A stretch of 64,000 nucleotides of DNA, taken from positions 1 through 64,000 of the IMG/VR virus record IMGVR_UViG_3300027608_000028, one strand, 5' to 3'. Of this stretch, positions 7,442-49,887 are shown in pieces. Each line of letters begins with the position of its first letter. Position 1 is the first letter of the stretch. The DNA is from a virus. The position numbers and the translations under genes are program-made. Under the pieces are notes generated by a model. The model worked only from the letters and a program-made list of their open reading frames with translations. It was not told the origin of the DNA and did no database searches.

Positions 7442-8596
7442 TTAATTTTGTCGAATAATAACTGTTCCACATCCAGCTAGATTGGTACAGGTTTGTAATA
7501 AATTAATGCTAAGTGGATTGGTAGTTGAACTTTGTATTAGATCCAAATTGTTTGGACCTCCAAGTCCTCTAGTCATGTCGATTGTTGCTTTGTTTGGCTG
7601 AGTACCTTCTTGTACTATTACTGCATTATTTTGCGCCCCGTTCATTTTAAGATCTAAATAGTGCTGGCCAGTGCCTTTTTGCACAATGTCAGCAACATTA
7701 CTATTTCCACTAACATCGATGAACATTATTTTATTTCCGTTATCATTTTGCTTGGCTACTATAGAATTTTGGTTACCGTAAATAGAAGTTGACATAAAAT
7801 GGCCGCCCACACCGCCAGTGTTATTCTGCTGTAATGTCATTGAGTTGTTAGTACCCACCATATCTGTTTCTAAATAATGTCCATTTGAACCCTCAGGTGT
7901 ACCATTGACAGTTCTTCCTTGATTTACGTTAATAGTATTAGTATCTCCTAGTGTATTCATTTTAATTTGATTCTGGCCTATACCGATACCTCCTTGATTT
8001 ATATTAGTAGTATTGGTATTTCCTTGCATAGTTAAATTAATTTCTCCATGTCCTTTTTGATCAATTGTAATAACGTTATTGTCACCAATTTGATCTATAT
8101 AAATTAATTTATTAGGCGCCGTGTAATTTTGATGCAATGTTATTTTTGCTTGTTGTCCTTGTGTAATAACACTAGTGCCAGGCCCAGTTGTCATTGACAG
8201 TGAAGAGCCCTGAGAATTTGTTGTAGTTGTGACTGGCGGGCTACTAAAACTATAGTACCTGCCAGAATCTGGCCATGCTATGTTGCCATTGCCGTCGCTG
8301 GTATAAAGATACAAAAAGTCGCCGTTTAGTGTAGCATGGTCTACAATATAAGTTGTTCCTGAACATTCCGGACTTGTACAAGACGCTAGCCAGCCACTTA
8401 AATTATTAATTCCTATTGTGGCTAGTGCATCAAACTCTGCTGGGTTGTTACCTCGGTACACAAATATATAGTCACTACCCTGTCCACTGACATTCATTGC
8501 CGGGCCAATAGTTGTTGCGTCTGCTCTTAATGAAAATAAAACCGCTATTACAAAAATTACTATTGCAATAATATAATCGTTAATATAATCTTTCAT
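7442..8596 (-). CDS. Curlin-repeat secreted protein (CsgA/CsgB-like), long form
   Basis: 384 aa. N-terminal hydrophobic signal segment (about 8-26), a less repetitive domain to about 150, then some ten curlin-type repeats in which I-x-Q-x-G-x-x-N-x-x-x-I-x-Q spacing recurs (for example IYIDQIGDNNVITIDQKG). In CsgA such strands stack into an amyloid beta-solenoid. Lies nine bases after the FecR gene in the csgF-csgG cluster, so it is a likely export substrate. The unusual N-terminal domain could be an adhesion or cap module. Confidence 0.8.
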   Translation of the reverse strand: MKDYINDYIIAIVIFVIAVLFSLRADATTIGPAMNVSGQGSDYIFVYRGNNPAEFDALATIGINNLSGWLASCTSPECSGTTYIVDHATLNGDFLYLYTSDGNGNIAWPDSGRYYSFSSPPVTTTTNSQGSSLSMTTGPGTSVITQGQQAKITLHQNYTAPNKLIYIDQIGDNNVITIDQKGHGEINLTMQGNTNTTNINQGGIGIGQNQIKMNTLGDTNTINVNQGRTVNGTPEGSNGHYLETDMVGTNNSMTLQQNNTGGVGGHFMSTSIYGNQNSIVAKQNDNGNKIMFIDVSGNSNVADIVQKGTGQHYLDLKMNGAQNNAVIVQEGTQPNKATIDMTRGLGGPNNLDLIQSSTTNPLSINLLQTCTNLAGCGTVIIRQN

Positions 8597-8604
8597 AGTA
8601 CTAC

Positions 8605-9723
8605 TTATTTTTGTGTCAACGTAATAATAGTGTTATTCCCAGAGTTAACACGATTCTTAAATTCTAAACTTCCCTGCGTCTGATATATTATCGCACTTTG
8701 TGTTAATGGTATAGTTACACTTTGAATGTCACTGCCGTTATCTCTGTAAAGGGTTAATCCTAGTTCATCTTTAAATACTTGTATGCCGCTACTTCTTTTC
8801 CAATCTGGTAACTGACTATCTACGTCTTTTAGTAAGTCTTCGTTTAAGGCTCCGCCTACCATATCAAATATATTTTCTAAGAACGATGTTGTTGTTAGAT
8901 AATCCTGACTTAGCCTATTACCGAAAAACTCTTTCTGTGAAGCATCTAGCGCATTTTCCAAACCTTTTTCTTTAAGGAAGTCTATATCCAGTGCGCTCTT
9001 AAAGCCTCGGCTTTCTCGGGCGGCGGCTTGTAATTCTTTTGGTGCTGTAAATAACATCATGTTGTTCATTTGATCTTCACTAAAATTTAATATAACTGGT
9101 CTTGTGGGAGCATTCATTCTACTAGATATTCGTGTAGCTTGAAATGCTTTATTTAAAATTACTGTACCCATATCGCTGGTAACTATAATTTCTCCTACTA
9201 CACATTCATATTCAATATCTTTTACAGTCCTTCCCGTTCTTGGCGCTGGACAACTGGGTAGCAATACAACTGTACTTGCTCCTACTTCGTCAACTGTTGT
9301 TGTAAAATCTGTACCCCTAACACCAATAGTAGCTGTGGGTGTAGTTATTGCAACATTTTGCGGATTATTTTTAGCTACCTGGCCTGATGCATATCTTACT
9401 GTACCTAATGCTATCTTAACTGCCAGCTTACCACCCGATTTACTTTTAGGATCATATACAAAATCATCTATTACTAATTTACTGTTTTCAGTTATCTGTA
9501 CCTTAGTGTCATCTTCAAACGTAATACCAACTTTTCCTGATCCTGTTTTAATCGAATCATTCATTTCTATACCGGCTCCTTTGGTTCCTTCTACGGTGGA
9601 CTTTGCTCGCTGAATCTGAGACACGGCGGCAATTTGTTCCGTGACTTTTCCAACAAATGCGCCTGCGTCCAATGATATACTGGCCAATAGTATTATGGCT
9701 CCAAATAGTTTGTGCAATTTCAT
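8605..9723 (-). CDS. FecR-domain periplasmic protein
   Basis: 372 aa with signal peptide (about 1-22). Residues about 40-150 carry the FecR fold signature: a glycine-rich strand around the KTGSGKVGITFEDDT stretch, then TPTATIGVRGTDF. The C-terminal half is not recognised. In bacteria FecR domains bind ligands or sugars in the periplasm and often lie beside CHASE2 cyclases, which suggests the pair works as a sensing unit. Spacing to both flanking curlin-repeat genes is only about 9 bases. Confidence 0.85.
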   Translation of the reverse strand: MKLHKLFGAIILLASISLDAGAFVGKVTEQIAAVSQIQRAKSTVEGTKGAGIEMNDSIKTGSGKVGITFEDDTKVQITENSKLVIDDFVYDPKSKSGGKLAVKIALGTVRYASGQVAKNNPQNVAITTPTATIGVRGTDFTTTVDEVGASTVVLLPSCPAPRTGRTVKDIEYECVVGEIIVTSDMGTVILNKAFQATRISSRMNAPTRPVILNFSEDQMNNMMLFTAPKELQAAARESRGFKSALDIDFLKEKGLENALDASQKEFFGNRLSQDYLTTTSFLENIFDMVGGALNEDLLKDVDSQLPDWKRSSGIQVFKDELGLTLYRDNGSDIQSVTIPLTQSAIIYQTQGSLEFKNRVNSGNNTIITLTQK

Positions 9724-9732
9724 TTGCGTTCT

Positions 9733-10512
9733 TTAATTTCTGCTAGTCAGTGTAGTAACGTTTCCGTTACCAACGCTTTTTAAATTAATAGTAGAATCAA
9801 CAGTTCCAGACTGGTTAATTACCGTAGTATTACTAGATCCGGCAATATCAACTTTAGCATAATGTCCTAAAGTACTGCCACCACTTTGTGTTATTGTAGT
9901 ACTATTGCTGGCTCCTACTGTAACAATATCAACCTGGCCTTTGTCTCCGGTCATATTTAAAATTGTTGCGTTGGCTCCGCCTCCAGTTTGATTAATTGTT
10001 GCTATTACATCACTTGCATTTATATCTGCACTTAATGAATTATTGGCTCCGCCTGCTTGTATTGCGGTTAACGAATTATTAGTTCCTAGCATATTAATTG
10101 TTGCCAGTGAGTCATTACCATCTTGATCTATACTCAATGTTTGACTTGCGGCAAGTCCCAAGCCATCGCCATTAATGTTTATAGTAGCTATAGCATTATT
10201 GCCTTGTACTTTGTAAAATACATTAGTTGCATTGGATCCATTGGCCGTAGTAGTATCTACTCCCATGTTTAATATATTACCAGATCCTATTTGCTGGATA
10301 CTTAAAAGAAGGCCATCGCCTCGAAGTCTGCTGGGCGTTGTATTACCTGTGCCTACGCCCTGTACAGCTCGTACTCTGTTTGAGGCTCCGTCCTGGAGCA
10401 TCGTAATTGTTGCGTTATCTCCTGCTTGGTCAATAAAAATACTGTTGTCTGCCGCTTGTGACGCTTGACTCAGTAATATTAACCCTAACAAAAATATTTG
10501 TTTTGTTGTCAT
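9733..10512 (-). CDS. Curlin-repeat secreted protein (CsgA/CsgB-like), short form
   Basis: 259 aa with a clear signal peptide (MTTKQIFLLGLILLSQASQA). The mature part is almost wholly Gly/Asn/Gln/Thr-rich curlin-type repeats (for example IFIDQAGDNATITMLQDG). It follows csgG by 96 bases, which include a hairpin CACAAAT/ATTTGTG. Likely amyloid subunit or nucleator; which of the two curlin-like proteins is major cannot be told. Confidence 0.8.
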   Translation of the reverse strand: MTTKQIFLLGLILLSQASQAADNSIFIDQAGDNATITMLQDGASNRVRAVQGVGTGNTTPSRLRGDGLLLSIQQIGSGNILNMGVDTTTANGSNATNVFYKVQGNNAIATININGDGLGLAASQTLSIDQDGNDSLATINMLGTNNSLTAIQAGGANNSLSADINASDVIATINQTGGGANATILNMTGDKGQVDIVTVGASNSTTITQSGGSTLGHYAKVDIAGSSNTTVINQSGTVDSTINLKSVGNGNVTTLTSRN

Positions 10513-10608
10513 ATGTTATATATGATGTGATAGTTTAACACACCATACCCTTTTGGTACTTCCCTACCTTATCTCTGAATTCACAAATATTCTAATTTGT
10601 GTTTCTGT

Positions 10609-11967
10609 TCATTCCAACAGATCTATGTGTATCCATCCGCCTTTATATTCGCTGTCTGTAACTTTTAGCCAACCGTCAAAGCCCAGTTGTCTAATTGATA
10701 ATGTGGTTCCTTTAACGAACCACAACTTAGTTGCACTCTGTAAATTTGGTTCAGAATAGATGTGTCCTGATTCTTTAAGTTTCATTTTTCGGAATAATGT
10801 TATTCCTGCTAAACTAGTATTAGGTTTAACTCCAGTCGATATATCCACCGCTACGGGTTTGTTTTCTTTCTCGACTGGGGTTTCTTTAATGGGGGTACTT
10901 GCAGGCTCGGTAACTCCTCCAGCTGGCTTTGGTTCTTTGGGCCCGTCAATTTTGCTTCCTGCAGGTGCTTCTCTGCCATTGGACTCGAGTGATATGGGTG
11001 ATGGTGCGGTTTGGGTGCCGGGGGATTCTTCCTTGCCGCTCTTTTGAACCAACTCATTTTTCACCTCTGGAGGCACTACTACAACTGTCTTCGGTGCAGG
11101 TGTTTCCACTACTACGGGTGGTATTATTTTTTCTTCTTTTAGTATCACTGGAGGTGTTACTGATGTTATAGTTTTTCTGTATTCCCATACGCCTTTCCTT
11201 TCGCCTTCTTTAATCAATTCTACTACTGCCATTTCAATAGCTGATTTAACTGCGTATGTGCCAGGCTCATTTATAGTTAAACCTAATTCAGCTTCGAATG
11301 CTTGTGTGCCAGCATCAAAAAATTTCAGTGCTGTAGCGGAATCTGCTGTACTTAAAATAGTTTTTTGTACATTTACTGTCATTAAAACTTTTCCTGTGTT
11401 AACTGATATTGCACGTAAACTGACTGTTACTGTATCTGTGCTCCATTGAGTTTGTCTTCCAATTCCAAATATACGCATACCGGCGCCGCCGCTGGTAGTA
11501 CTAGAGTCATATCCAATGATTCCACCCTCGACTATCATTCCTGCAAATTGTAATGGCATTAACGGTTTAGCATTTGAACCTTCATAGGCTTCGCGCATCT
11601 GTCTAATTATTAAACGTTCCTTAGTAAGGTTATCTACGCCCACACGTTCTACTACTTCAAACCAATTACCAGCGCCAACGTCTTGTAATGCTTTAATTAA
11701 AAATGCTTCGGCGCCCTGTGTAACTGCCGAACTTAAACTGGCCACGTTAGCTTGTGGTCTACGTTGTCCAGTTTTATCTGCAAAACTGTATACTGCCACA
11801 CTTAGCGGTTTCGTACTTGCTGGCAACGGAATATTAGCAAATTCTTTTTTAACTGCTTCGCGTTGCGTAGTTACCGTTGGATCCGATTCTGTAATGCCGG
11901 CAAACTGCGACACCGCGCATCCGTTTAATATCACTAAGGTTGTAATATATAATAATCTTTTTATCAT
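10609..11967 (-). CDS. csgG: CsgG-family outer-membrane curli secretion channel with SH3-like tail
   Basis: 452 aa from the ATG at 11967; 11 upstream in-frame codons are rejected because they displace the lipoprotein signal (LNGC, Cys about 17). Residues about 40-280 match CsgG closely: SVAVYSFADKTGQRRP, the IMVEGSIIGYES-type strand as MIVEGGIIGYDSSTTSGG, RIFGIGRQTQW and SAIEMAVVELIKEG. CsgG is a nonameric lipid-anchored pore exporting curlin. Beyond the usual CsgG length lie a Pro/Lys/Glu linker and a C-terminal SH3-like domain (about 390-452). One base after csgF. Confidence 0.93.
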   Translation of the reverse strand: MIKRLLYITTLVILNGCAVSQFAGITESDPTVTTQREAVKKEFANIPLPASTKPLSVAVYSFADKTGQRRPQANVASLSSAVTQGAEAFLIKALQDVGAGNWFEVVERVGVDNLTKERLIIRQMREAYEGSNAKPLMPLQFAGMIVEGGIIGYDSSTTSGGAGMRIFGIGRQTQWSTDTVTVSLRAISVNTGKVLMTVNVQKTILSTADSATALKFFDAGTQAFEAELGLTINEPGTYAVKSAIEMAVVELIKEGERKGVWEYRKTITSVTPPVILKEEKIIPPVVVETPAPKTVVVVPPEVKNELVQKSGKEESPGTQTAPSPISLESNGREAPAGSKIDGPKEPKPAGGVTEPASTPIKETPVEKENKPVAVDISTGVKPNTSLAGITLFRKMKLKESGHIYSEPNLQSATKLWFVKGTTLSIRQLGFDGWLKVTDSEYKGGWIHIDLLE

Positions 11968-11968
11968 C

Positions 11969-12421
11969 TTAAAACTGGAACTGCCCCAATGGTATGACAA
12001 TCGTTGTCTGATTTCCTACTGTATCTGTTACGACCAATGTTACACTAGTTGTTCCGTCCTTAGTCCAAAAAATAGTATTACCTTCAAAATTTAAAGTACC
12101 ACTAGTAGCGCCACCATCTTTAAACATTGCTGTTGCAAGATTTTGTGATATTTGTGCGTAAATTCTAGATTCTAAATTGTTTAGAAACTTTTGTAGATTG
12201 GTATTCTTTTTGTCTGCCGCGGCCTTTTCTATTGCGGCTTGTATAGCATCACGGACAGACTTCTGACGAGTAAATTCTTGATTTTCTATCGTTAATACGT
12301 GACTACTGTAGCCAATGCCATTAAATGCAGGGCTTTTAAAGGAAAAATCCGATATCGGTGCGGCCACTAAGTTTAGTGGCATAGCTATTGCGATTAAAAA
12401 GTATTTTTGTAGTTTTGTCAT
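11969..12421 (-). CDS. csgF: CsgF-family curli assembly factor
   Basis: 150 aa with signal peptide (about 1-20) and a mature N-terminus SDFSFKSPAFNGIG. This matches the CsgF N-terminus (F-x-F-x-N/S-P-x-F-x-G), the part that binds inside the CsgG pore. The C-terminal strand TIVIPLGQFQF fits the family end. Gene order csgF-csgG with one base between them supports the call. Ribosome site is weak. Confidence 0.88.
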   Translation of the reverse strand: MTKLQKYFLIAIAMPLNLVAAPISDFSFKSPAFNGIGYSSHVLTIENQEFTRQKSVRDAIQAAIEKAAADKKNTNLQKFLNNLESRIYAQISQNLATAMFKDGGATSGTLNFEGNTIFWTKDGTTSVTLVVTDTVGNQTTIVIPLGQFQF

Positions 12422-23942: not shown

Positions 23943-24740
23943 CTAAGTTAGGCTTCCTACCGAATGGCTAAAGCCGCCATCAACATAAGTTATCTCAGCA
24001 GTAATACCTGCCGCTAAATCACTCATTAAAAATGCCGCTACATTGCCCACGTCTTCAATTGTCACGTTGCGGCCAATTGGTGAGTTTTCTGCTACGACAT
24101 TAAGAATTTTACTAAAATCTTTAATTCCGCTAGCGGCCAGTGTTTTTATAGGACCAGAGCTAATACCATTGGCTCTGTACCCTTTTCCACGCGATCCCAA
24201 TGATTTTGCCAGGTAACGTACTGACGACTCGAGGCTCGCTTTAGCTAATCCCATTGTATTATAATTGGGTATTGCTCGAACGGAGCCGATATAAGTCAAT
24301 GTAAGAAATGAGGCATTATCGTTTAAGTATGGTAAACTAGCTTTAGCCAATGCTGGAAAGCTATATGCACTAATATCATGCGCTATACTAAATGAATCTC
24401 TAGAGAGTCCGTCTAAGAAATCTCCGGCAATTGATTCTCTTGTAGCAAATCCTATAGCATGTACTAGTCCATCAAAAGAAGTCCAGTGATGACTTAGATC
24501 TGTCATTAACTTGGCAATTTGCTCATCACTAGACACATCACATTCAAATACTAGGTTAGATCCAAAGTCAGATGCAAATTCTGTAATGCGATCCTTAAAC
24601 CTTTCGCCTACGTAACTAAATGCTAGTTCGGCGCCCTGAGCATGGCATGCCTTTGCAATGCCGTAGGCAATTGACCTAGTAGAAAGTACACCTGTAATTA
24701 GAAATTTCTTACCGGTTAAAAATCCGGTTTGGTCAATCAC
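23943..24740 (-). CDS. fabI: Enoyl-ACP reductase (FabI)
   Basis: 265 aa, full length for FabI. N-terminal LITGVLSTRSIAYGIA is the NAD-binding motif of this group; LTYIGSVRAIPNYNTMGLAK has both FabI tyrosines with the catalytic Y-x6-K spacing, and ANGISSGPIKTLAASGI is the substrate loop. It does the last reduction of fatty-acid elongation (NADH-dependent). It overlaps the small membrane gene upstream (ATGA) and belongs to the lipid set with the desaturases and the synthase at 37370-38584. Confidence 0.93.
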   Translation of the reverse strand: MIDQTGFLTGKKFLITGVLSTRSIAYGIAKACHAQGAELAFSYVGERFKDRITEFASDFGSNLVFECDVSSDEQIAKLMTDLSHHWTSFDGLVHAIGFATRESIAGDFLDGLSRDSFSIAHDISAYSFPALAKASLPYLNDNASFLTLTYIGSVRAIPNYNTMGLAKASLESSVRYLAKSLGSRGKGYRANGISSGPIKTLAASGIKDFSKILNVVAENSPIGRNVTIEDVGNVAAFLMSDLAAGITAEITYVDGGFSHSVGSLT

Positions 24741-26086: not shown

Positions 26087-26944
26087 TCAAGTATTAACTT
26101 TTGCAAGTCCTACTTTTGCCAACCAATTTATAATAGAAGCATTGTGTTCTATTTTTCCTTGCTGGCTATCTGGATGAAAATTCCAACGTTGCGGAAAGCA
26201 ATGATGTGTTCCATGATACTGTTCGCCGCGGCCAAACCACCAACCAGGCAAATCTACCGCTTTATGATTCTGTAGTCCTTGACTAGGATGTATATACTTC
26301 CAAAAATATAGTTTACTATTGGCAGGGTTATGGCCAAATGTATTAAGTACAGCGGCCGCAAAGATAGCCAACTGTGTTCCCATAACCCATATTAGGATTA
26401 ACTTATAATCAATTAGTGCAAGAACAAATGTAATTCCTAATACAAATTTCCAGTAATGTTGTGTTAACGTTTTCTGGCCGGGTCGTTTCATATGATTTAT
26501 AATTAGTTTCCACTGTGGCCATTCTAGTGGACCTGACTGATGCATGAAAGGAAACAACAATGCAGTAAGTCTATTTCGTCCATGTGTATCTTCGGGAGGA
26601 TGCGGATCACCTTCTCGGTCACTGTATTTGTGATGGGTGATGTGTATCAATACGTAACCAGTGTGATATCCTTGTAAAAATAAAGGACACAATGCAACAA
26701 TAGTTAGCTCTAACCAACGTGGCACACTAAAGTAACTGTGTGCATAAAATCTATGATTAACTAGTGTACCATATTGTCCTGCTATGCGTTGTATGACAAA
26801 TACCATTAACAGGAACCACCAGCTATAACCCAACCATTCCCTGAATGGTTCAACGAGTATAGCAGTCAATAACAAACCGATACCTAATAGGTAAAGAGTC
26901 TGAAGTCTAACTGCATCTACGTGATGTTCTTTTAGTTGATCCAT
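26087..26944 (-). CDS. Fatty-acid desaturase, paralogue 1
   Basis: 285 aa membrane di-iron desaturase of the acyl-CoA delta-9 type. Histidine boxes: HRFYAH (about 62), HITHHKY (about 100), HGTHH (about 245), with REGDPHPP after box 2. Four membrane helices. Last of three tandem paralogues; starts two bases after paralogue 2. The degree of divergence suggests different positional or chain specificity. Confidence 0.9.
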   Translation of the reverse strand: MDQLKEHHVDAVRLQTLYLLGIGLLLTAILVEPFREWLGYSWWFLLMVFVIQRIAGQYGTLVNHRFYAHSYFSVPRWLELTIVALCPLFLQGYHTGYVLIHITHHKYSDREGDPHPPEDTHGRNRLTALLFPFMHQSGPLEWPQWKLIINHMKRPGQKTLTQHYWKFVLGITFVLALIDYKLILIWVMGTQLAIFAAAVLNTFGHNPANSKLYFWKYIHPSQGLQNHKAVDLPGWWFGRGEQYHGTHHCFPQRWNFHPDSQQGKIEHNASIINWLAKVGLAKVNT

Positions 26945-26945
26945 G

Positions 26946-27818
26946 TTACGCTGGCGTTTTAACTTCTGCTATACCAAGTTTTACTAACTTGTCTATTATC
27001 CATGCATTTTGATCTAGCTTGCCTTGCTCTGCTTGGGGATGAAAATTCCAACGATTAGGATATGTATGATGCACATAGTGCCAATTTTCGCCGCGGCCTG
27101 GTAAACTCCAGCCTGGTAAATTAACTGCTTTATGTGTGCTATCAATATCACCACGATAATGTTTCCAGAAATATAATTTACTATCGGGCGGATTATGTCC
27201 GTAGGTGTTTAGCATATAACCCATAAAGATACCAAGTTGTGTACCAGCTAACCAAATAAACAATAGTTTATAATTTACAATACAGAATAACACAGTAATA
27301 AGTGCAACCATATGCCAGTAATACTTGGTAATAAATTTCTGCGCTGGCCTTCTCATGAATTTGATAATCAGTTTGAGTTCTAATTCTTTACTGTCGTGTA
27401 AAAAAGGAAACACTAGGTTAACCCAACGCTTACGGGTAGCACTAACTGGGGGATGCGGATCTCCTTCTTGGTCAGCATACTTGTGATGCATTAAGTGTAC
27501 AACAACATAACCTGCAGGATATCCTTGCAGGGCAAACGGACTCATTAATACAACTAATCGTTCAAACCAAGGTACAACTGTAAAGTGATTGTGTGCCAAC
27601 ATTCTGTGATAAAATAATGTAGAGTATTGGCCGCATACACGTTGTACAATGAATACTAATAATAAGAACCACCACCCAAATCCCAACCACTCTCTGAATG
27701 GTTCAATAAAAATACTACTCAATAAAATCAGCATACCGATGTGGTAAATGACTTGCAAACGGAATCCGGCCACATGTTGATTATTGTAGATTTTTTTATA
27801 GTAGTCCAAGAATATCAT
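26946..27818 (-). CDS. Fatty-acid desaturase, paralogue 2
   Basis: 290 aa. Boxes HRMLAH, HLMHHKY and HYVHH are all intact; QEGDPHPP follows box 2. Same membrane layout as paralogue 1. Overlaps paralogue 3 by four bases (ATGA). Confidence 0.9.
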   Translation of the reverse strand: MIFLDYYKKIYNNQHVAGFRLQVIYHIGMLILLSSIFIEPFREWLGFGWWFLLLVFIVQRVCGQYSTLFYHRMLAHNHFTVVPWFERLVVLMSPFALQGYPAGYVVVHLMHHKYADQEGDPHPPVSATRKRWVNLVFPFLHDSKELELKLIIKFMRRPAQKFITKYYWHMVALITVLFCIVNYKLLFIWLAGTQLGIFMGYMLNTYGHNPPDSKLYFWKHYRGDIDSTHKAVNLPGWSLPGRGENWHYVHHTYPNRWNFHPQAEQGKLDQNAWIIDKLVKLGIAEVKTPA

Positions 27819-28690
27819 ATTGGTGTTTTTACTTCTGCAATGCCAATTCTTACTAGCTTGTCAATTATCCATGCGTTCTGGTCTAGTTTGCCTTGATCAG
27901 ATTCAGGATGTAAATTCCAACGTCGAGGATATGTGTGATGCATGTAATGATATTTTTCACCACTACCACCTAATAAAACTGTCCATGAGTTCTTAAGATT
28001 AACTGCTGAATGAACTTGTGGATTTTTAATATGCATATCATCCATGGCCATTTTATCATTTTGATGTGCATAAGTGTTGAACCTTGCGCCACCAAACGTA
28101 GCTAACTGTGTACCCATTAGCCATATAAACAAAAACTTGTAACTGATTAATCCTATTAGGACAATATACAATATAGTAACAGGCCAATAGTATTTCATAA
28201 TCCATGTCTGTAATGGTCGTTTCATTAAAGGTAATACTAACTTGTATTCTACTGGGCCTGGTTCAGTTAAAAACGGAAACAGTAAATTATTCCAACGACG
28301 TCTATTTTTACTAACGGGAGGATGCGGGTCGCCTTCTTGGTCAGCGTACTTGTGATGACGTAAATGAAGCCATGAATAACCTGCAGGATAGCTTTGTAAT
28401 AGCAAGGGACTTATCAATACTAGTACACGTTCAAACCAAGGCTTGACAGTATATAAATTATGTGCAAATAATCTATGATAAACTACGGTGTCAAATTTAA
28501 TTGCAAAGTATTGTATTACATAAATCCACATCAGGAACCACCAACCAAATCCCAACCATTCCCTGAATGGTGCATATAAGATTGTAAATGGAATTAATCC
28601 CAGACCTATTAGGTATATAAATTGTAGTCTTTTTGAATCTGGATGGGCATGAGCCCATAAAGACTTTAAGTGAGAAACTGCTCTGTTCAT
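27815..28690 (-). CDS. Fatty-acid desaturase, paralogue 3
   Basis: 291 aa. Boxes HRLFAH, HLRHHKY and HYMHH are intact. First of the three in transcription order and overlaps the clpS stop as ATGA, so ClpS and desaturases share one message. It has a slightly longer loop before the third box. Confidence 0.9.
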   Translation of the reverse strand: MNRAVSHLKSLWAHAHPDSKRLQFIYLIGLGLIPFTILYAPFREWLGFGWWFLMWIYVIQYFAIKFDTVVYHRLFAHNLYTVKPWFERVLVLISPLLLQSYPAGYSWLHLRHHKYADQEGDPHPPVSKNRRRWNNLLFPFLTEPGPVEYKLVLPLMKRPLQTWIMKYYWPVTILYIVLIGLISYKFLFIWLMGTQLATFGGARFNTYAHQNDKMAMDDMHIKNPQVHSAVNLKNSWTVLLGGSGEKYHYMHHTYPRRWNLHPESDQGKLDQNAWIIDKLVRIGIAEVKTPI

Positions 28691-28992
28691 TCTGCTTCGA
28701 CGGTTACTGCCAACGGAAATCCATTCATTCTAGCAGACGTTACAGTTTCTCCTGCTTTTTGTTCTGCTATTTCATATGTATATAATCCAGCAACACCTTT
28801 GCCTTTTTCATGAATCTCTGTCATGATATGCGTTGCACTAGCCTGGTCGTGGTGATAAATTTTCATCAATACTTCCACAACAAACTCCATGGGAGTAGCA
28901 TTGTCATTCTCAAAAATAACCTTAAACATACTAGGTTTTTTAATAATAACTTTAGTTTCTTTTTTAGCTATGGTGGCGGTTTCAGTTGTCAT
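28687..28992 (-). CDS. clpS: ClpS-like N-degron adaptor
   Basis: 101 aa. SMFKVIFENDNATPMEFVVE matches the ClpS core; the N-degron pocket residues Asn-Asp, Met and His (TEIHEKG) are present, though the third acidic pocket position is Asn. ClpS delivers N-degron proteins to ClpA. No ClpA lies in this window, only ClpX, so it may redirect host ClpAP. A TATAAATA box sits six bases before the ATG. Confidence 0.9.
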   Translation of the reverse strand: MTTETATIAKKETKVIIKKPSMFKVIFENDNATPMEFVVEVLMKIYHHDQASATHIMTEIHEKGKGVAGLYTYEIAEQKAGETVTSARMNGFPLAVTVEAE

Positions 28993-29566: not shown

Positions 29567-30148
29567 TCAAGGCCGTTTGCTCTTAATAATAGTAGCAATC
29601 ATCCTATTTCCATTCATATCTGGGCGGCCTTCAACTTGGGCAATATCTATTAGTTCGATAATTTTATTAATAATATCGTAGCCCTTACTAGTATCGCTCA
29701 TTTCTCTTCCTCTGAATCGAATAACAATTTTGCACTTATCTCCATCTTCTAAGAACTCTTTTATTTTCTTTATTTTAGTTTCAAAATCGTGTTCGTCAAT
29801 GCTGGGTCTAAATTGAATTTCCTTAACATCTACTCTGCTTTCGCGTTGTTTCTTTTCTACTTCTTGTTGACGTTTTTGTTCATTATAAATGAACTTACCA
29901 AAGTCAACAATCTTGCAAACAGGGGGTACGGCATTAGGCACCGTGCATACCAAATCTAATCCTTCGTCAGAGGCCATGTCTAATGCTTGATTAACATTTA
30001 CTACTCCAACAAGAGTACCATCGGAGTTATGTAATCGTACTTGGCTGTGTTTGTATTTTATCTGATCATTTGTTAAAAATGATTGTCTTAGTTCTGCTGT
30101 TGCGCTTAATCTTACAGGACGTGGTGGTCGTGATCTTTGGTTATACAT
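29567..30148 (-). CDS. infC: Translation initiation factor IF-3
   Basis: 193 aa, full length. N-domain LTNDQIKYKHSQVRLHNSDG, the linker helix KFIYNEQKRQQEVEKKQRES, and C-domain KEIQFRPSIDEHDFETKIKK with GDKCKIVIRFRGRE, all diagnostic. IF-3 binds the 30S subunit and controls start-site selection. It overlaps clpX by eight bases. A phage IF-3 could shift initiation towards phage messages, possibly the leaderless ones proposed here. Confidence 0.95.
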   Translation of the reverse strand: MYNQRSRPPRPVRLSATAELRQSFLTNDQIKYKHSQVRLHNSDGTLVGVVNVNQALDMASDEGLDLVCTVPNAVPPVCKIVDFGKFIYNEQKRQQEVEKKQRESRVDVKEIQFRPSIDEHDFETKIKKIKEFLEDGDKCKIVIRFRGREMSDTSKGYDIINKIIELIDIAQVEGRPDMNGNRMIATIIKSKRP

Positions 30149-31379
30149 GGTTGGTTTGCTCGTCTCCTTTGTAGACGTATATTGGTTGGCTGTGGTTAGC
30201 TATAGTATCGTCTGTCAATACTATTTTTATAACTCCCTGCTCTCGCAAAGAAGGTAATTCAAATTGTGTTAGTAACAAGGTCCGTTCCATTATATTACGT
30301 AGCCCACGTGCCCCTAACTTTTTATCTATGCACTCTTTAGCAATAGCACGTTTGGCACTGTCTGTGATTTCTAATTCAACTTTATCTAATAAAAATAGTT
30401 CCTGAAATTGTCGCTCTATGCTATTTTTAGGTTCAGTGATTGTTCTAATTAATTCATCTTCTGTTAATTCATCTAACGTTGCGTACACTGGTACTCTTCC
30501 GATAAACTCTGGTATAATGCCAAATTTAATAATGTCGTCGGGTTCTACTTTATTAAGTGGTACTGTGCTGTTATTATCTATTTTAGCATTAAACCCAATG
30601 GTGTTACCTATGTTTAATCTTTTAGCAATAATTTTATCTAAGCCAACAAATGCTCCGCCTAAGATAAACAAAATGTCTTTGGTGTTAATCATCTCAGCAG
30701 GTGCGCCCGGGTGCTTCCTGTTGCCAGTAGTGGGCACTTTACATTCCGTACCTTCTATTAATTTTAATAATGCTTGTTGCACACCTTCACCGCTAACGTC
30801 TCTAGTTATACTGCTACTTTCACTTTTACGACTCTTTTTATCTATTTCATCAATAAAGATTATGCCTTGTTCTGCTTTCTTAACATCATTACCTGCCGCG
30901 GTTAATAATCTAAAAATAACGTGTTCTACGTCATCGCCTACATAACCGCTTTCAGTCAGACTAGTTGCATCTGCAATAGCAAACGGAACATCCAGCATAC
31001 GGGCAATAGTTTTAGCTAATAATGTTTTACCGGATCCAGTTGGTCCAATTAACAAAACATTGCTTTTGTCTATTTCACATTTGATAGTTTCTTGACTGTA
31101 TATTCTTTTATAATGATTATACACTGCCACGCTTAATGTTAGTTTGGCCTGTTCTTGCCCTATTACATATTGGTCTAAAAATGCAAACATTTCTTTTGGG
31201 GTTTTAAGCCTAGTGTCGGCCATTGCATCAGTTAATGCGTGTTCGTGTACTAAGTCATGACATAGATTTATACATTCATCACATATATAAACATTGTCTC
31301 CGGCTATTAGCTTTTTTACTTCTTCTCTGCCTTTGGTGCAAAAACTGCATTGCAAATTATCATCTTTGTCTTTGACCAT
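30141..31379 (-). CDS. clpX: ATP-dependent unfoldase ClpX
   Basis: 412 aa. N-terminal zinc domain with Cys11, Cys14, Cys33 and Cys36 (CSFC...CDEC); Walker A GPTGSGKT (about 111), pore loop YVGDD, Walker B IIFIDEID, the RKHPGAPAEMINTKDILFIL region and sensor-2 GARGLR. With ClpP (phage copy at 35430-36008) it forms the ClpXP protease, the main consumer of tmRNA-tagged proteins. Confidence 0.96.
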   Translation of the reverse strand: MVKDKDDNLQCSFCTKGREEVKKLIAGDNVYICDECINLCHDLVHEHALTDAMADTRLKTPKEMFAFLDQYVIGQEQAKLTLSVAVYNHYKRIYSQETIKCEIDKSNVLLIGPTGSGKTLLAKTIARMLDVPFAIADATSLTESGYVGDDVEHVIFRLLTAAGNDVKKAEQGIIFIDEIDKKSRKSESSSITRDVSGEGVQQALLKLIEGTECKVPTTGNRKHPGAPAEMINTKDILFILGGAFVGLDKIIAKRLNIGNTIGFNAKIDNNSTVPLNKVEPDDIIKFGIIPEFIGRVPVYATLDELTEDELIRTITEPKNSIERQFQELFLLDKVELEITDSAKRAIAKECIDKKLGARGLRNIMERTLLLTQFELPSLREQGVIKIVLTDDTIANHSQPIYVYKGDEQTNHV

Positions 31380-35429: not shown

Positions 35430-36008
35430 TTAATATGTCTCTTTTATTAAATCGCAGATACCCAACTCTAGAGCCTCTTCTGCCGACAACCACATGTCTT
35501 GTGGCGGCAATAAGAATTCTCTAATTTTATCATCTGGCAAACCTGTGCAATGACGATAATGGGCCAGCATCCTATCTCTTGTTAGGTTGAACTCTTTCAT
35601 AGCGGCGAACAACTCGTGTTCTTTGCCATCGCTATGCCAACTATATTGGTGACTCAATATACTTGTATTAGGAGTTAGTATTCTATTGCCGGGTTCGCCG
35701 GACATAAAAATACAAAGGGCGGCACTAGCAACCATTCCTATACCAATAGTTCTAATTGGTATTGCACTACCTTGCATAGTATCAATAATAGCAAAGCCGG
35801 CTTGCAAGTCACCGCCCTCGCTGTGAATAATTAATGTTAGTGATTTCTTTTTCCCACGTTTTACTAGATTCTCTTCAATGATCCATTTTACAACGTCATG
35901 GGCACTATCTGCATCAATGTCTTTCATTAATAAGAAATAACCATGATCTCTCATCACACTTATTTCAACATCCGCTTCTGTGGGTTTTTTCTCGGGGTAT
36001 CGAGCCAT
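35430..36008 (-). CDS. clpP: ATP-dependent Clp protease proteolytic subunit
   Basis: 192 aa from MARYPEKKPTEADVEISVMR with GAGGAAC upstream; the 22 codons upstream are rejected because they encode the promoter. Catalytic Ser95 (GMVASAA), His120 (LSHQYSW) and an Asp near 170 (QDMWLSAEEA) are present, and the handle region is complete. It should form the chamber for ClpX (30141-31379). Own consensus promoter at 36034-36062. Confidence 0.93.
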   Translation of the reverse strand: MARYPEKKPTEADVEISVMRDHGYFLLMKDIDADSAHDVVKWIIEENLVKRGKKKSLTLIIHSEGGDLQAGFAIIDTMQGSAIPIRTIGIGMVASAALCIFMSGEPGNRILTPNTSILSHQYSWHSDGKEHELFAAMKEFNLTRDRMLAHYRHCTGLPDDKIREFLLPPQDMWLSAEEALELGICDLIKETY

Positions 36009-36033
36009 GTCTAGTTCCTCTATGTACTGTGTA

Positions 36034-36062
36034 ATTATATACTCAGTTATTGTCTGAGTCAA
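36034..36062 (-). promoter_or_regulatory. Sigma70 promoter of clpP
   Basis: TTGACT, 17 bases, TATAAT on the minus strand. It lies inside the rejected N-terminal extension of clpP and so fixes the start codon. Confidence 0.85.
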
Positions 36063-36082
36063 GTATTTATTCAATCAAGTCA

Positions 36083-37366: not shown

Positions 37367-37374
37367 TATTTATA
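37367..37374 (-). promoter_or_regulatory. T4-late-like TATAAATA box before iscU
   Basis: Exact TATAAATA on the minus strand, five bases before the iscU ATG; no room for a ribosome site if used as a -10 box. Confidence 0.55.
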
Positions 37375-38584
37375 GGTTAGGATTTTTTAGGACCATACTA
37401 ACACAACGGCCACTGAATCCAAAACTATTTTTAAGGATATAACGCAGTGGCTTATCCATCGGTTTATGCATAACAAAATTAACGTCATCACGCAATGGAT
37501 CACGTAGATGTCCAGTATGTGGAATCATTCCGTGTTGCATTGCCATAATACTATACGCTGTTTCTAATAGGCCACTAGCGGCCATGGTATGACCAATGTG
37601 TCCTTTATTACTGCTGACTGGAGTATCGCTACCAAATACTGTGTGTATCGCTAACGCTTCCGCTTCATCACCTGCAGGTGTGCTTGTTCCGTGGGCATTA
37701 ATATAATCGATATCGCCGGCTTGAATACCTGCTCGCTTAATTGCCTGTGTCATTGTCTTAATACCGCCTACTGCATTAATATCAGGGTCTGTTGGGTGAT
37801 CTGCTTCTGTATATGCTCCGAAACTAGAGATTTCTGCTAGGATTGTTGCGTTTCTTGCTATGGCGTCTTTTTTACGTTCAACTACAAAGGCACAAGCGCC
37901 ATCGCCTAATATAAAACCGTTTCTTGCTTTATCAAAAGGTCTACTACAGTCATCACTGTCTTCCATACTCAATGCTCGTAGTTGTTGGAAATAGTAACGC
38001 CAAAATGCACTATCGCCAAAGTCACTACCGCCAGCAACACTATACTCTAAATCTGGATCTGTTTGCAATAACATAGCGGCATGCCTGATGCTTAATAGTC
38101 CGCTGGCACAGGCGCCGGTTGTACTAATACTTGGTCCGTGTAATTTAAAATATGTACTGAGGAATCCGTTAGTCCAATCCTTGCCGCCGTATAAAATTTT
38201 GAACGGATTCACATTTACTTTGCCATCAAACATACTTGCGGCTTGAAATTCTAATAGTTCTTGCGGGCCAGCCAAACTACCATATGTACATGTGGCATAG
38301 GCATTACCCGATAGGCCTGCCATATCTAATGCTAGTTGTATTGTATGAATACTTGCCTTTTGTACTATAGGCATTAAACGTTGCTCACGATCATTCAATC
38401 CCTCTATTCGGAATCCTTCTTCGCCGGGAACTTCAAATACACGTTTTTGTATGACACTGGGCCATTTAGGTTCTTGATTTACGGGCTGTGACTTGTCGTG
38501 TATTAAACTGTCCCAACATTGCGTTGGGGTAATACCGCAGGAATCAACCATCCCTATGCCTGTAATAACTACTTCATCTAGCAT
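37370..38584 (-). CDS. Beta-ketoacyl-ACP synthase (FabF/FabB type)
   Basis: 404 aa. Catalytic Cys in STTGACASGLLS, His in NAHGTSTPAGD, His in NKGHIGHTMAASG, and a final NSFGFSG segment: the complete Cys-His-His triad of condensing enzymes. FabB- or FabF-like specificity cannot be told by eye. It extends acyl-ACP chains and pairs with FabI (23943-24740). AAAGGAAAATT precedes the start. Confidence 0.92.
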   Translation of the reverse strand: MLDEVVITGIGMVDSCGITPTQCWDSLIHDKSQPVNQEPKWPSVIQKRVFEVPGEEGFRIEGLNDREQRLMPIVQKASIHTIQLALDMAGLSGNAYATCTYGSLAGPQELLEFQAASMFDGKVNVNPFKILYGGKDWTNGFLSTYFKLHGPSISTTGACASGLLSIRHAAMLLQTDPDLEYSVAGGSDFGDSAFWRYYFQQLRALSMEDSDDCSRPFDKARNGFILGDGACAFVVERKKDAIARNATILAEISSFGAYTEADHPTDPDINAVGGIKTMTQAIKRAGIQAGDIDYINAHGTSTPAGDEAEALAIHTVFGSDTPVSSNKGHIGHTMAASGLLETAYSIMAMQHGMIPHTGHLRDPLRDDVNFVMHKPMDKPLRYILKNSFGFSGRCVSMVLKNPNL

Positions 38585-47211: not shown

Positions 47212-47775
47212 TTATTCCCACTTTAAAAAATTAGCAAATAGCTCTTGTGCTCGTTGAAAGGTTATGCCTTCCATGTTACTTGCGTCTAACAAATCAAAAC
47301 TCATACATAGTCTAGACTTGGATCCGTTTGTTATATTGTGTGGTACACCAGTTTGGCAAACACTGGGGCTCTTAACTAGATGTGAGTATATTACTTGACA
47401 TTTGTCGTCAGGAAAAGTAATATAAGGTGTATTTGCATTTGATACTCCAGCAACTGTTTGAAATGCAGGATCAAAATCAAACCAGTTCATCATACTATTA
47501 TCGTCTTGCCCATATATCCAGTTCATTTTAACTTTGTCGCCCAGGCCTCTGTCAACATGAATTTCCCCTACGTGATGTGCAGGTCGAAATATTATTTCAA
47601 CCATATTAATTTTAACGCCTACTTCTTTTAGCCATTCATATAACGCAGGATTTATATATCTAAATCTATCAATTTTAGTATGTCTGTATTCTGCAGATTT
47701 AAGTATGTTAGCAGGAAACATAGGATCCTTAAATGGCTCAACTGGGCAGTCTACGTGGAAACAATAATTGTTCAT
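47212..47775 (-). CDS. Possible 2-oxoglutarate/Fe(II) oxygenase-like protein
   Basis: 187 aa. GEIHVDRG (H-x-D) and, about 85 residues on, GVPHNITNGSKSRLCMSFD (His then Arg) follow the facial-triad order of the Fe(II)/2OG fold. Overlaps the desaturase gene by ATGA and ends convergent with 47210. Substrate unknown; the operon suggests lipid or surface oxidation. Confidence 0.6.
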   Translation of the reverse strand: MNNYCFHVDCPVEPFKDPMFPANILKSAEYRHTKIDRFRYINPALYEWLKEVGVKINMVEIIFRPAHHVGEIHVDRGLGDKVKMNWIYGQDDNSMMNWFDFDPAFQTVAGVSNANTPYITFPDDKCQVIYSHLVKSPSVCQTGVPHNITNGSKSRLCMSFDLLDASNMEGITFQRAQELFANFLKWE

Positions 47776-48476
47776 GATCTTATCTTTGCAAGTCTTACTA
47801 ACCTAAATAAACTTAACCACATCCACCCTGCATCAAACTCAAACCAACGACGACTTAGTCGAGGGTTAGCAGGATCCAAATGATGGTTATTATGCAGGCA
47901 TTCGCCGCCAACAATAATATCCCAAGGAACAATGTTTCTACTGTGATCTTTAGTTTCGCCATTTCGATATCCTATCCAATGTCCTACACCGTTGATGACT
48001 CCTGCGGCCCAGAAAGGAATCCAAATCATTTGGATGCCCCATATTAACAATCCCCACCAGCCAAAACAAAGTAGATTTACAAGCAATAACAAAGTAATTC
48101 CTAGTTTGCTGTGTTTGGTATATACGTTTTTCTCCATCCAGTCGTTGGGTGTGCCTTGCCCGTATGTGGCAACCATTGCAGAGTCTTTGCTGGCTGTGTG
48201 ATACAAGAATGCTCCACGAAACAGCACATGCCATATGCCGTATACGTGTGGACTGTGTGGGTCGCCGTCCTGCTCGGTAAATCTATGATGTTTGCGGTGT
48301 ACTGCTACCCATTGCTTAGTGATCATGCCGGTTGTAAGCCAAAGCCAGGCTCGCATAAAGTGTTCTAGTATAGGATGGAATTGGATTCCTTTGTGTGCTT
48401 GTCCTCTGTGTAAAAACAGAGTAACACATATGATAGTGATATGTGTTACTACAAGAGTGTATATAATTATGTTCAT
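47772..48476 (-). CDS. Fatty-acid desaturase, paralogue 4 (divergent)
   Basis: 234 aa from MNIIIYTLVVTHITIICVTL; an ATG six codons upstream is also possible. Boxes HRGQAH, HRKHHRF and HNNHH with EQDGDPHSPH. It is shorter and clearly more distant than the three tandem paralogues, with a conserved RNGETKDHSRN segment before box 3, like bacterial delta-9 enzymes. Sits between a 2OG-oxygenase-like and a Rieske gene. Confidence 0.9.
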   Translation of the reverse strand: MNIIIYTLVVTHITIICVTLFLHRGQAHKGIQFHPILEHFMRAWLWLTTGMITKQWVAVHRKHHRFTEQDGDPHSPHVYGIWHVLFRGAFLYHTASKDSAMVATYGQGTPNDWMEKNVYTKHSKLGITLLLLVNLLCFGWWGLLIWGIQMIWIPFWAAGVINGVGHWIGYRNGETKDHSRNIVPWDIIVGGECLHNNHHLDPANPRLSRRWFEFDAGWMWLSLFRLVRLAKIRS

Positions 48477-48483
48477 AACATAC

Positions 48484-49374
48484 TTATCTTGCAAGACATT
48501 GTCTATAGTTACGTTTTTCCGGGTCTAAATGTAAAGGGTTACAGTCTCTCCAACTAGGTTCCATATTTTCTGCTTGGTCTTTATCTTGGGCCCACGCAGT
48601 TTCCCATACTTGTTCATTGACTGCCCAATTTTCTTCTGGGTAATTAAAATCTCTGTATTTAAAAATATGACTAATTGTTTCTGTGTCTGACTTTGGTTCA
48701 TTAATCATTACAAAAACTGCACCAGGTTGCCATTCAAACATTGTTCCTGGATATTGTGCTAGCCATACTGCATTGTACGCTAATCCTTTACCTTTAATAA
48801 ATTTAGTAAAATCTGTTTCTTCAGTCATTGACCCGACGACATATTGTGCGCTTCCACCATCCCACCGCTTCCATGTTATTTCTTCTACATTAGGTACATT
48901 AATTTTAGCATATACTCCGGGGTGAACTAACGGTATATGATCTATGTCTAAAAATAAATCCATAATTGGAACATAATTAGATTTAATTACGTCTTGTCGA
49001 TATTCTACTAATTTATAGTCGCCGACGATATTTCTATCCAATGGTACAGGATCTGTGAATAAGAACCCACTCCATTCAAATACAGGCTCTGTTGTTAAAG
49101 GATGATTATTTTTGCAAGGCATGGATCCTGTACTGTGTCCCACAGTGCCGCTACCTTTTGGTGTTCCATTCTTATCCCAACTCCAGCCATGGTATGGACA
49201 AACTGCATGTAGGTTTGTTCCTGCACCTTTTCGTATACGACTACCTTGATGCGTACAAATATTGCTTTGTAATGTAAAGTTACCTTCAACATTTAGCAAT
49301 GTTTTTTTAGACTGAAATTGTTCTAGAACTTTCCAACTTCCCTGAGGGATATCATTGATGTGTGCTAAAAACAT
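48484..49374 (-). CDS. Rieske-type mononuclear iron oxygenase
   Basis: 296 aa. Rieske ligands C-x-H...C-x2-H in CTHQGS and CPYHGWSWD (about 37-60). The catalytic iron site is D-x2-H-x4-H in DIDHIPLVHPG (about 150-160), as in ring-hydroxylating and related oxygenases. It needs a reductase, not seen nearby. Start codon is six bases from a TATAAATA box. Confidence 0.9.
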   Translation of the reverse strand: MFLAHINDIPQGSWKVLEQFQSKKTLLNVEGNFTLQSNICTHQGSRIRKGAGTNLHAVCPYHGWSWDKNGTPKGSGTVGHSTGSMPCKNNHPLTTEPVFEWSGFLFTDPVPLDRNIVGDYKLVEYRQDVIKSNYVPIMDLFLDIDHIPLVHPGVYAKINVPNVEEITWKRWDGGSAQYVVGSMTEETDFTKFIKGKGLAYNAVWLAQYPGTMFEWQPGAVFVMINEPKSDTETISHIFKYRDFNYPEENWAVNEQVWETAWAQDKDQAENMEPSWRDCNPLHLDPEKRNYRQCLAR

Positions 49375-49380
49375 ATAGTA

Positions 49381-49388
49381 TATTTATA
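49381..49388 (-). promoter_or_regulatory. T4-late-like TATAAATA box before the Rieske gene
   Basis: Exact TATAAATA on the minus strand between the tmRNA terminator and the Rieske ATG, six bases before the start codon. Confidence 0.55.
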
Positions 49389-49393
49389 TATAA

Positions 49394-49415
49394 GAAACCC
49401 GCCGAAGCGGGTTTC
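49394..49415 (-). terminator. Terminator of the tmRNA gene
   Basis: Perfect 9-bp stem GAAACCCGC/GCGGGTTTC with CGAA-type loop at the end of the tmRNA coding piece. Confidence 0.85.
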
Positions 49416-49587
49416 TGGTGGTTTCTGTTACGAGGCATTTCCTGCCCTAAGTGGCTGTTAGGCCGCTAATGCGAACTGTGAGTCGTTTGCGGTTACTTTT
49501 GTTTAGTTTTTACGACTATCGCTGTCGTGCTGTCCACTCTGTTACTTGTTGCCCTGTCGAATCTAGGTCAGGCCCATCAAAAGAAAA

Positions 49588-49695
49588 TTACACATCTTTT
49601 TTGTGATGCGGTTTGATATTGAGACCGTATAGATAACTAACACCGCACACTGACAACACTATCATCACTGCGACAAATACTATTACCTCGATCAT
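49588..49695 (-). CDS. Membrane microprotein ORF inside the tmRNA intervening segment (35 aa)
   Basis: ATG with AAAGGA eight bases upstream. MIEVIVFVAVMIVLSVCGVS is a membrane helix, followed by a basic tail KPHHKKDV. It fills the segment between the two tmRNA halves (49576-49707), starting 12 bases after the CCA end. Could be a real gene using the spacer or a chance ORF; the ribosome site favours real. Confidence 0.5.
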   Translation of the reverse strand: MIEVIVFVAVMIVLSVCGVSYLYGLNIKPHHKKDV

Positions 49696-49794
49696 TTAAT
49701 TTCCTTTTGGTGGACCTGGGGGGATTCGCACCCCCGTCCAGAACACTTTTCTCTTTGCTTCATACAGCAATAACTCTTACTACATATCATACGG

Positions 49795-49887
49795 AAGAAG
49801 GTAGGGGATTCGGACCCCTGGGAGGTGTTGTTAAGAACCTTCGCTAGTTTCGGAAACTAGTACTTTAAGCCACTCAGTCAACCTTCC
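49795..49887 (-). tRNA. Class II tRNA with apparent CCG anticodon, possibly degenerate
   Basis: Long variable arm and serine-type D arm, acceptor GGAAGGT/ACCTTCT. Anticodon stem CTAGT/ACTAG encloses TTCCGAA, so U33 is followed by CCG, an arginine anticodon on a serine-type body. The T-loop is TCCGAAT (C at 55), position 73 is T and no CCA is encoded (CCG follows). It resembles tRNA-Ser(TGA) of the array. Either a decayed or a recoding tRNA. Lies directly before the tmRNA 3' half. Confidence 0.65.

Follow-up and report, generated by a model that had tools for sequence, protein, structure and literature searches.

Results

A permuted tmRNA gene on the minus strand

The window analysed here (64,000 nucleotides, positions 1 to 64,000 of the IMG/VR virus record IMGVR_UViG_3300027608_000028, itself 70,305 bp long) carries a tmRNA gene in which the 3' tRNA-like half lies upstream of the 5' half, both being placed on the minus strand by ARAGORN and Rfam. 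The original prediction of a circularly permuted phage tmRNA of the two-piece type with the tag ANDSQFALAA, made from the sequence by eye, is borne out by agreement between ARAGORN, which called a permuted gene (tmRNA*) at 49367-49800 on the minus strand with that tag, and two Rfam models. The covariance-model search proposed as a check accepted the fold, with both scores above cut-off: RF01850 (beta_tmRNA) gave 133.2 bits against a cut-off of 84 at 49827-49391, and RF04321 (tmRNA_permuted) gave 121.4 bits against 47 at 49769-49458. By its score the tmRNA is of the beta type. Its parts are as follows.

49764..49769, minus strand: upstream strand TGCTGT of a distal inter-half helix (Rfam alignment)
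49708..49746, minus strand: 3' tRNA-like half, or acceptor piece (ARAGORN 3' tRNA domain, 55-93 of the gene; Rfam)
49576..49707, minus strand: intervening sequence (IVS), 132 nt, separating CCA from the 5' half (ARAGORN gene offsets)
49549..49575, minus strand: 5' tRNA-like half GGGCCTGACCTAGATTCGACAGGGCAA, containing GATTCGAC (ARAGORN 5' tRNA domain, 226-252)
49458..49490, minus strand: tag frame ANDSQFALAA with resume codon GCA and stop TAA (ARAGORN)
49393..49416, minus strand: hairpin 3' of the coding half, a possible terminator (Rfam 3' hairpin)

The 3' half comprises, in order, a helix-2 strand, GGAC, the T arm, the acceptor strand CAGGTCC and ACCA, and the partner of TGCTGT is ACAGCA at 49528-49533 (counted on the ARAGORN sequence). 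A resume codon is present and the tag ends in a degradation-type sequence. The 7-bp acceptor stem was read correctly (GGGCCTG/CAGGTCC) and includes a G3-U70 pair, the alanine identity element. Helix 2, described as having seven base pairs, in fact has six standard pairs and one G-A (GTGTTCT/AGGGCAA). As to the proposed terminator, the hairpin at 49393-49416 is there, but the scan rated it terminator-like only on the plus strand, its T run being weak on the minus side. A promoter scan found no sigma-70-like promoter on the minus strand between 49300 and 50100.

An open reading frame inside the intervening sequence

Permuted phage tmRNAs are already known, and the new observation at this locus, missed in the first reading, is that the IVS holds an open reading frame (ORF) led by a Shine-Dalgarno (SD) sequence. 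Directly after CCA comes AAAGGAAATTAAATG, followed by an open frame of 35 codons. Three features lie within the IVS.

49697..49707, minus strand: 5' strand of an 11-bp IVS terminal helix, with the SD AAAGGA right after CCA (ViennaRNA fold of the IVS, helix search)
49588..49695, minus strand: IVS ORF of 35 aa, MIEVIVFVAVMIVLSVCGVSYLYGLNIKPHHKKDV (SD-led open frame)
49580..49590, minus strand: 3' strand of the terminal helix, with the ORF's TAA stop; TGAT and then the 5' half follow (ViennaRNA)

The predicted terminal helix pairs the SD region with the stretch that holds the ORF's TAA. The peptide has one hydrophobic stretch (maximum Kyte-Doolittle value 2.78) and is membrane-like. Within the IVS, a terminator scan also marked a terminator-like hairpin at 49610-49591 (minus strand), overlapping the end of the ORF; such a site could attenuate the precursor or cut it short.

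The intervening sequence as a cargo slot across phages

We extracted 173 unique phage IVSs from 233 of 366 loci (some loci were repeat stretches of the same contigs; each unique IVS counts once). A length of 80 nt or more was reached by 106 of the 173, and 63 of these 106 carried AGG in their first nine bases. An SD together with an ORF that encodes 20 aa or more and takes up at least half of the IVS was found in 57 of the 173, which is not a prevalence because one of the scans feeding the set demanded AAGG after CCA. These 57 fall into 30 sequence families, with representatives of 23 to 151 aa, and a few singletons among them may be chance. Of the 57, 26 have a stop codon that ends one base short of the 5' half. 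When all scans were pooled, the start codons of ORFs covering at least 60% of the IVS lay at nt 9-15 in 35 of 45 cases and at nt 23-24 in eight. Terminal helices of at least 6 bp were present in 71 of 74 unique phage IVSs, against 13% of shuffles. The window IVS, which is also the IVS of locus L063, has the SD after CCA, a start near nt 9-25 and an ORF filling the IVS. Over 420 bases the sequence of L063 matches the window exactly, and the two may come from one virus population.

Of 38 unique IVSs of 84 nt or more from a scan on the T-arm pattern, which did not select on the IVS, 17 hold an ORF with its start at nt 8-25 and a coverage of at least 70%, against a mean of 2.06 and a maximum of 7 in shuffles. 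Such filling ORFs occurred in 15 of the 17 IVSs with AGG in the first 9 nt and in 2 of the 21 without it. The scan restricted to the ANDSQFALAA tag gave four filling ORFs among 17 IVSs of at least 84 nt, which is not significant alone (shuffles: mean 1.59, maximum 6), and these were distributed as 4/6 SD-bearing IVSs and 0/11 others. The ORF survey of phage rows covered tagged rows, with 12 phage rows lacking a tag left out.

Some of the larger cargo ORFs (those of L033, L390, L352, L348 and L369) start at nt 24 and begin with MRIK, MRIQ, MQIN or MRIN, and an ATAAATA(C/T) motif precedes the start in L033, L390, L352 and L348, the four in which the start of the IVS was inspected. This motif is perhaps a late-type promoter inside the IVS.

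Intervening sequences measured in the bacterial beta lineage are short

The IVS of permuted tmRNA is discarded in bacteria. In 27 further beta loci, taken from the best-scoring matches, it measured 23-36 nt, and in an earlier bacterial sample 24-42 nt in 11 of 12 loci, the twelfth (L322) having an IVS of 5 nt and an odd tag. Terminal IVS helices exist in bacteria too, and AAGG begins 4 of the 12 IVSs of the earlier sample, so that the SD of the phage ORFs may have been taken over from a processing helix.

For a counter-check on long bacterial IVSs, six long-span loci were fetched, five Rfam alignments inspected and three loci scanned for ORFs of at least 25 aa. Long alphaproteobacterial IVSs did not supply a counter-example, as there was no such ORF just after CCA in L568 or L569 (two alpha loci only); the IVS of L568 is repetitive by eye. 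The long span of L570 is mostly a long tag region, and the fit of RF04321 to L572, a beta locus, is doubtful.

Selection on the cargo and its movement between tmRNA genes

Ratios of nonsynonymous to synonymous change were low in several cargo families: dN/dS was 0.06 for L011/L035, 0.15 for L033/L390 and 0.25 for L360/L395; against L375 it was 0.12 for L064 and 0.10 for L366; and within the L115 group ten pairs ranged from 0.14 to 0.40. A comparison of the first L118 ORF with L064 gave 0.08 (dS 1.74, dN 0.14). The nearly identical pairs L038/L386 and L044/L386 gave 0.89 and 0.66, on few changes. Judged by these substitution patterns, several cargo families are under purifying selection and the cargo appears to be protein. 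Among the ten cargo peptides searched against Pfam, two exceeded the cut-off: that of L035 (CxxCxxCC, 26.6 against 23) and that of L352 (GNAT acetyltransferase, 28.5 against 27 and 26.6 against 20.7). The window peptide and seven of the nine others had no match over the cut-off.

The window ORF has three relatives, one of them identical. Its homologs in L118 and L574 (the L118 contig ends inside the tmRNA) are each the second of two ORFs in their IVSs; the window lacks that first cistron, so that its helix SD stands before an ORF that is second elsewhere. These comparisons bear on a simpler reading of the locus, namely that it is an ordinary phage two-piece tmRNA with a spacer for an IVS, the ORF being there by chance or as a decaying remnant. 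Such a reading would sit well with the many phage IVSs that have neither SD nor such an ORF, including those of four cultured phages with permuted tmRNAs (the IVS of Xanthomonas phage Rb1 has a 29-codon TTG frame without an SD), and with the comparison to L118, where all changes are nonsynonymous (four, against no synonymous change). It is at odds with the comparison to L574 (7 synonymous changes over 22 sites, 8 nonsynonymous over 83 sites; dN/dS 0.25, Fisher p 0.015), with the occurrence of the ORF in three distinct tmRNA genes and two arrangements, with the spacing of SD and start, and with the slot-wide statistics given above. On balance we consider a mere spacer unlikely.

Cargo also appears in different tmRNA contexts. 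The cargo of L498 and L500 is identical (identity 1.00) in tmRNA genes whose acceptor pieces are 0.80 and whose coding halves are 0.76 identical, which implies recombination. A 122-aa cargo has 16 relatives, of which 13 complete and two cut copies lie in tmRNA IVSs with several different tags; a 67% relative at 1495-1851 of L502 lies inside a larger protein frame with GVAEGS repeats on its flanks. For the two cargo families searched, no homologs were found in named phages.

The tmRNA itself is maintained

Stem pairing was examined in 29 unique phage stem sets, after 16 of 124 permuted rows had been dropped because their anchors were not matched. All seven acceptor pairs are formed in 29/29. 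The two positions left free by the search pattern, 4-69 and 5-68, are paired in 29/29 with compensatory changes (shuffle means 18.3 and 11.6), a result equalled in none of 1000 shuffles. In helix 2, pairs 5 and 6 covary and are formed in 28/29 and 26/29 sets (shuffle means 19.0 and 18.6); these stem-pairing statistics are not fully independent of the finder, because ARAGORN itself selects for pairing. The window tmRNA is neither a chance fold nor a decayed gene.

These data also bear on the idea that the tmRNA is vestigial, its tRNA-like halves serving only as processing signals that release an IVS mRNA. IVS ORFs that fill the slot would be expected on this account, as would the failure to find SmpB in the record (see below); the gene has nonetheless kept its tag frame, the acceptor G3-U70 and the compensatory changes in the acceptor stem and helix 2, and most tags end in A-A. 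We give this idea very little credence.

Distribution, lineage and tag

That a permuted phage tmRNA would be without precedent, as had been supposed, does not hold: IMG/VR contains others, and two-piece phage tmRNAs were described in a 2022 paper (PMC9004378), the accessible part of which reports one in Melnitz, a cultured marine phage, and gives a count of 133 unique tmRNA structures, 53 of them two-piece, from 402 of 18,146 phage genomes. Our T-arm pattern hit at least 119 loci in IMG/VR; among the matches listed, ARAGORN called 101 permuted and 2 standard tmRNAs and no tmRNA in 16. Permuted tmRNAs not annotated as such are also present in the cultured Xanthomonas phages Rb1 and X1, Alcaligenes phage vB_Af_QDWS595 and Stenotrophomonas phage vB_Sm_QDWS359 (accessions of the four: PQ569993, OK149171, ON331942 and OQ427096). 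The one alpha-type tmRNA sequence searched had no match in named phages. Among bacteria, a sample of 300 genomes from the order that includes Undibacterium squillarum yielded permuted genes in 13; in the family of one of those thirteen, 114 of the 297 genomes sampled had them.

A tmRNA tree was built from 128 of 203 rows over 192 columns, with duplicates removed and standard bacterial rows limited to 30; L140, L218 and L322, as well as rows beyond the limits on length or motif, had been left out beforehand. With bootstraps that had not settled, permuted rows separate from standard ones (100/100), except for L319, a long-branched permuted bacterial row that falls among the standard rows. The window groups with phages alone, in a set of 34 rows (95/98) nested inside a broader one of 68 phage rows (88/83). 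Only 12 permuted rows from bacteria were included, and the 11 besides L319 are placed outside this phage grouping.

The exact codon pattern of ANDSQFALAA, which does not cover synonymous Asn and Ser codons, had no match in the genome collection and was present in 24 of 239 collected loci; with AAY allowed, the pattern occurred in at least 119 viral stretches. A broader ANDS/ANDT-type pattern, the only one to reach AGY-type serine codings, hit at least 117 loci in genomes, among which were 100 standard tmRNA calls, none tagged ANDSQFALAA. Two permuted calls from it were judged false (tags GRAAAA and AAYQGLVLQFGRSRCPGTPA), and 17 loci gave no call. The absence of the exact pattern from the genome collection, together with the viral stretches that match once AAY is allowed, suggests that phages carry their own tags. 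Contamination by a host ssrA gene was rejected, given the phage genes among the neighbours and the absence of the exact tag codon pattern from the genome collection.

Clp proteins on the same record

The original prediction had also listed ClpX, ClpP and ClpS on this phage and proposed that it may control both tagging and destruction. All three proteins are real by domain searches and PDB alignments.

28687..28992, minus strand: ClpS ORF (PF02617, 96.7 bits at 28702-28941)
29567-30148, minus strand: translation initiation factor IF-3, full length, adjoining ClpX (both Pfam domains)
30141..31379, minus strand: full-length ClpX (zinc-binding, AAA and small domains; 467 bits against a PDB ClpX)
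35430..36074, minus strand: ClpP-family protease (PF00574, 111 bits; catalytic Ser/His/Asp kept in the PDB alignment)

ClpX, IF-3, Hsp20 and ClpS are consecutive on the minus strand. The three Clp proteins in one record would fit a phage-controlled module for tagging and degradation, as would the permuted tmRNAs in 12 of the 40 ClpX-bearing IMG/VR records examined (40 of 65), 11 of the 12 records being longer than 100 kb. Such a module is harder to reconcile with the distance of the Clp genes from the tmRNA (about 13-21 kb), with the rarity of the ClpX zinc domain among records with permuted tmRNAs (4 of the 43 examined, from at least 119 loci; all four exceed 320 kb, and many of the others are fragments), and with SmpB not being found in the 70.3-kb record, which may itself be a fragment. 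With no SmpB found there, SmpB of the host would probably be needed. We regard the module as possible yet rather doubtful; it is compatible with the dual use of the tmRNA gene set out in the Discussion. As ClpX and permuted tmRNA occur together mainly in large records, the virus is likely to be a large phage.

Other genes of the record

Near the tmRNA, PHROGs matches identify phage genes for an exonuclease, a virion structural protein, an endolysin and a tail fibre. One tRNA gene adjoins it.

49793..49887, minus strand: Arg(CCG) tRNA with a long variable arm, immediately upstream of the tmRNA (ARAGORN; RF00005, 46.5 bits)

A long variable arm is typical of Ser and Leu tRNAs, and CGG is a rare codon here (8 of 10,783 codons in 35 genes checked); this tRNA may be a misfit Ser-type scaffold or a candidate for recoding. 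A candidate selenocysteine tRNA at 864-948 on the minus strand (Rfam, 49.6 bits against a cut-off of 47; missed by ARAGORN) was rejected: its loop, CUUGAAA, gives the anticodon UGA, and it is therefore probably a tRNA-Ser with a long arm. Nor is a T4-type late promoter, TATAAATA, enriched: the minus strand has six sites where base composition predicts 5.6; five of the six are followed by ATG within 7 nt.

Elsewhere, on the minus strand at 5316-7403 and 7442-12421, a protein with CHASE2 and adenylate/guanylate cyclase domains adjoins a curli-like set that consists of CsgG (PF03783, 159.6 bits) and two repeat proteins, curlin-like by eye. Four histidine-box proteins resembling fatty acid desaturases (26087-28690 and 47772-48494, minus strand), a FabI-like protein (23943-24740) and a ketosynthase-like protein (37370-38584) were read from the sequence, and this set suggests that the phage may modify lipids.

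Discussion

Taken as a whole, these observations make it quite probable, in our assessment, that the locus is a phage gene with two products: the precursor of a permuted tmRNA, and an IVS that acts as a small mRNA. The transcript would be a permuted precursor consisting of acceptor half, IVS and coding half, folding into a tRNA-like domain, a fold supported by covariation. Enzymes of tRNA processing would make cuts behind CCA and in front of the 5' half, leaving a two-piece tmRNA as in the bacterial two-piece tmRNAs, and this RNA, together with host SmpB, would tag stalled products with ANDSQFALAA for ClpXP. The IVS would meanwhile serve as a small mRNA: from an SD in the 5' strand of the helix, a membrane-like peptide of 35 aa would be read, ending at a stop codon in the 3' strand. 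Since the SD is paired with the ORF's end in the terminal helix, translation probably competes with folding or processing of the precursor. In related phages the same slot holds about 30 ORF families, the cargo having been moved between tmRNA backbones by recombination.

More generally, it seems likely that phages have made a throw-away IVS into an exchangeable protein-coding cassette, so that one transcript yields both a rescue RNA and a small mRNA. Maturation of the tmRNA would be coupled to translation of the cargo, as the SD would be the pre-existing AAGG of the processing helix and the stop often ends a single base short of the 5' cut site. With a stop in that position, the cargo may even be targeted by its own tmRNA.

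Few bacterial RNAs are as widely conserved as tmRNA, and what we describe would be a new architecture of gene within a known RNA family. If our explanation is true, a large and diverse set of phage tmRNAs has turned the discarded segment to protein coding. This would offer a mapped site for the systematic finding of small uncharacterised phage proteins, many of them membrane-like, as well as a testable case of RNA processing coupled to translation. Our search of the open-access literature, judged on titles and the opening lines of abstracts, returned no description of a permuted tmRNA with an ORF in its IVS.

Three known systems invite comparison. Extra genetic content inside a tmRNA gene is shared with the tmRNAs that contain group I introns: the accessible part of PMC11915505 describes homing endonucleases in such introns, one IVS with a tRNA-Ala gene and one IVS with a repetitive element, but the intron ORFs are in T-loop introns and that part mentions no protein-coding IVS. 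Melnitz and other marine phages resemble our case in encoding a permuted tmRNA, and the phage also has curli-type and ribonucleotide reductase genes; unlike the window's tmRNA, which scores as beta type, that of Melnitz is of the alphaproteobacterial type and is linked to a glutamine riboswitch, and the portion of the paper available to us reports no ORF in the IVS (PMC9004378). The third system is that of the betaproteobacterial permuted tmRNAs (RF01850, RF04321), which share with the window the gene order, the acceptor stem and helix 2, the terminal helix of the IVS and, in some, the AAGG at its start, and which differ in having IVSs of mostly 23-42 nt, against 132 nt in the window, and in their tags, which among the bacterial permuted tmRNAs seen are mostly of the ANDE type.
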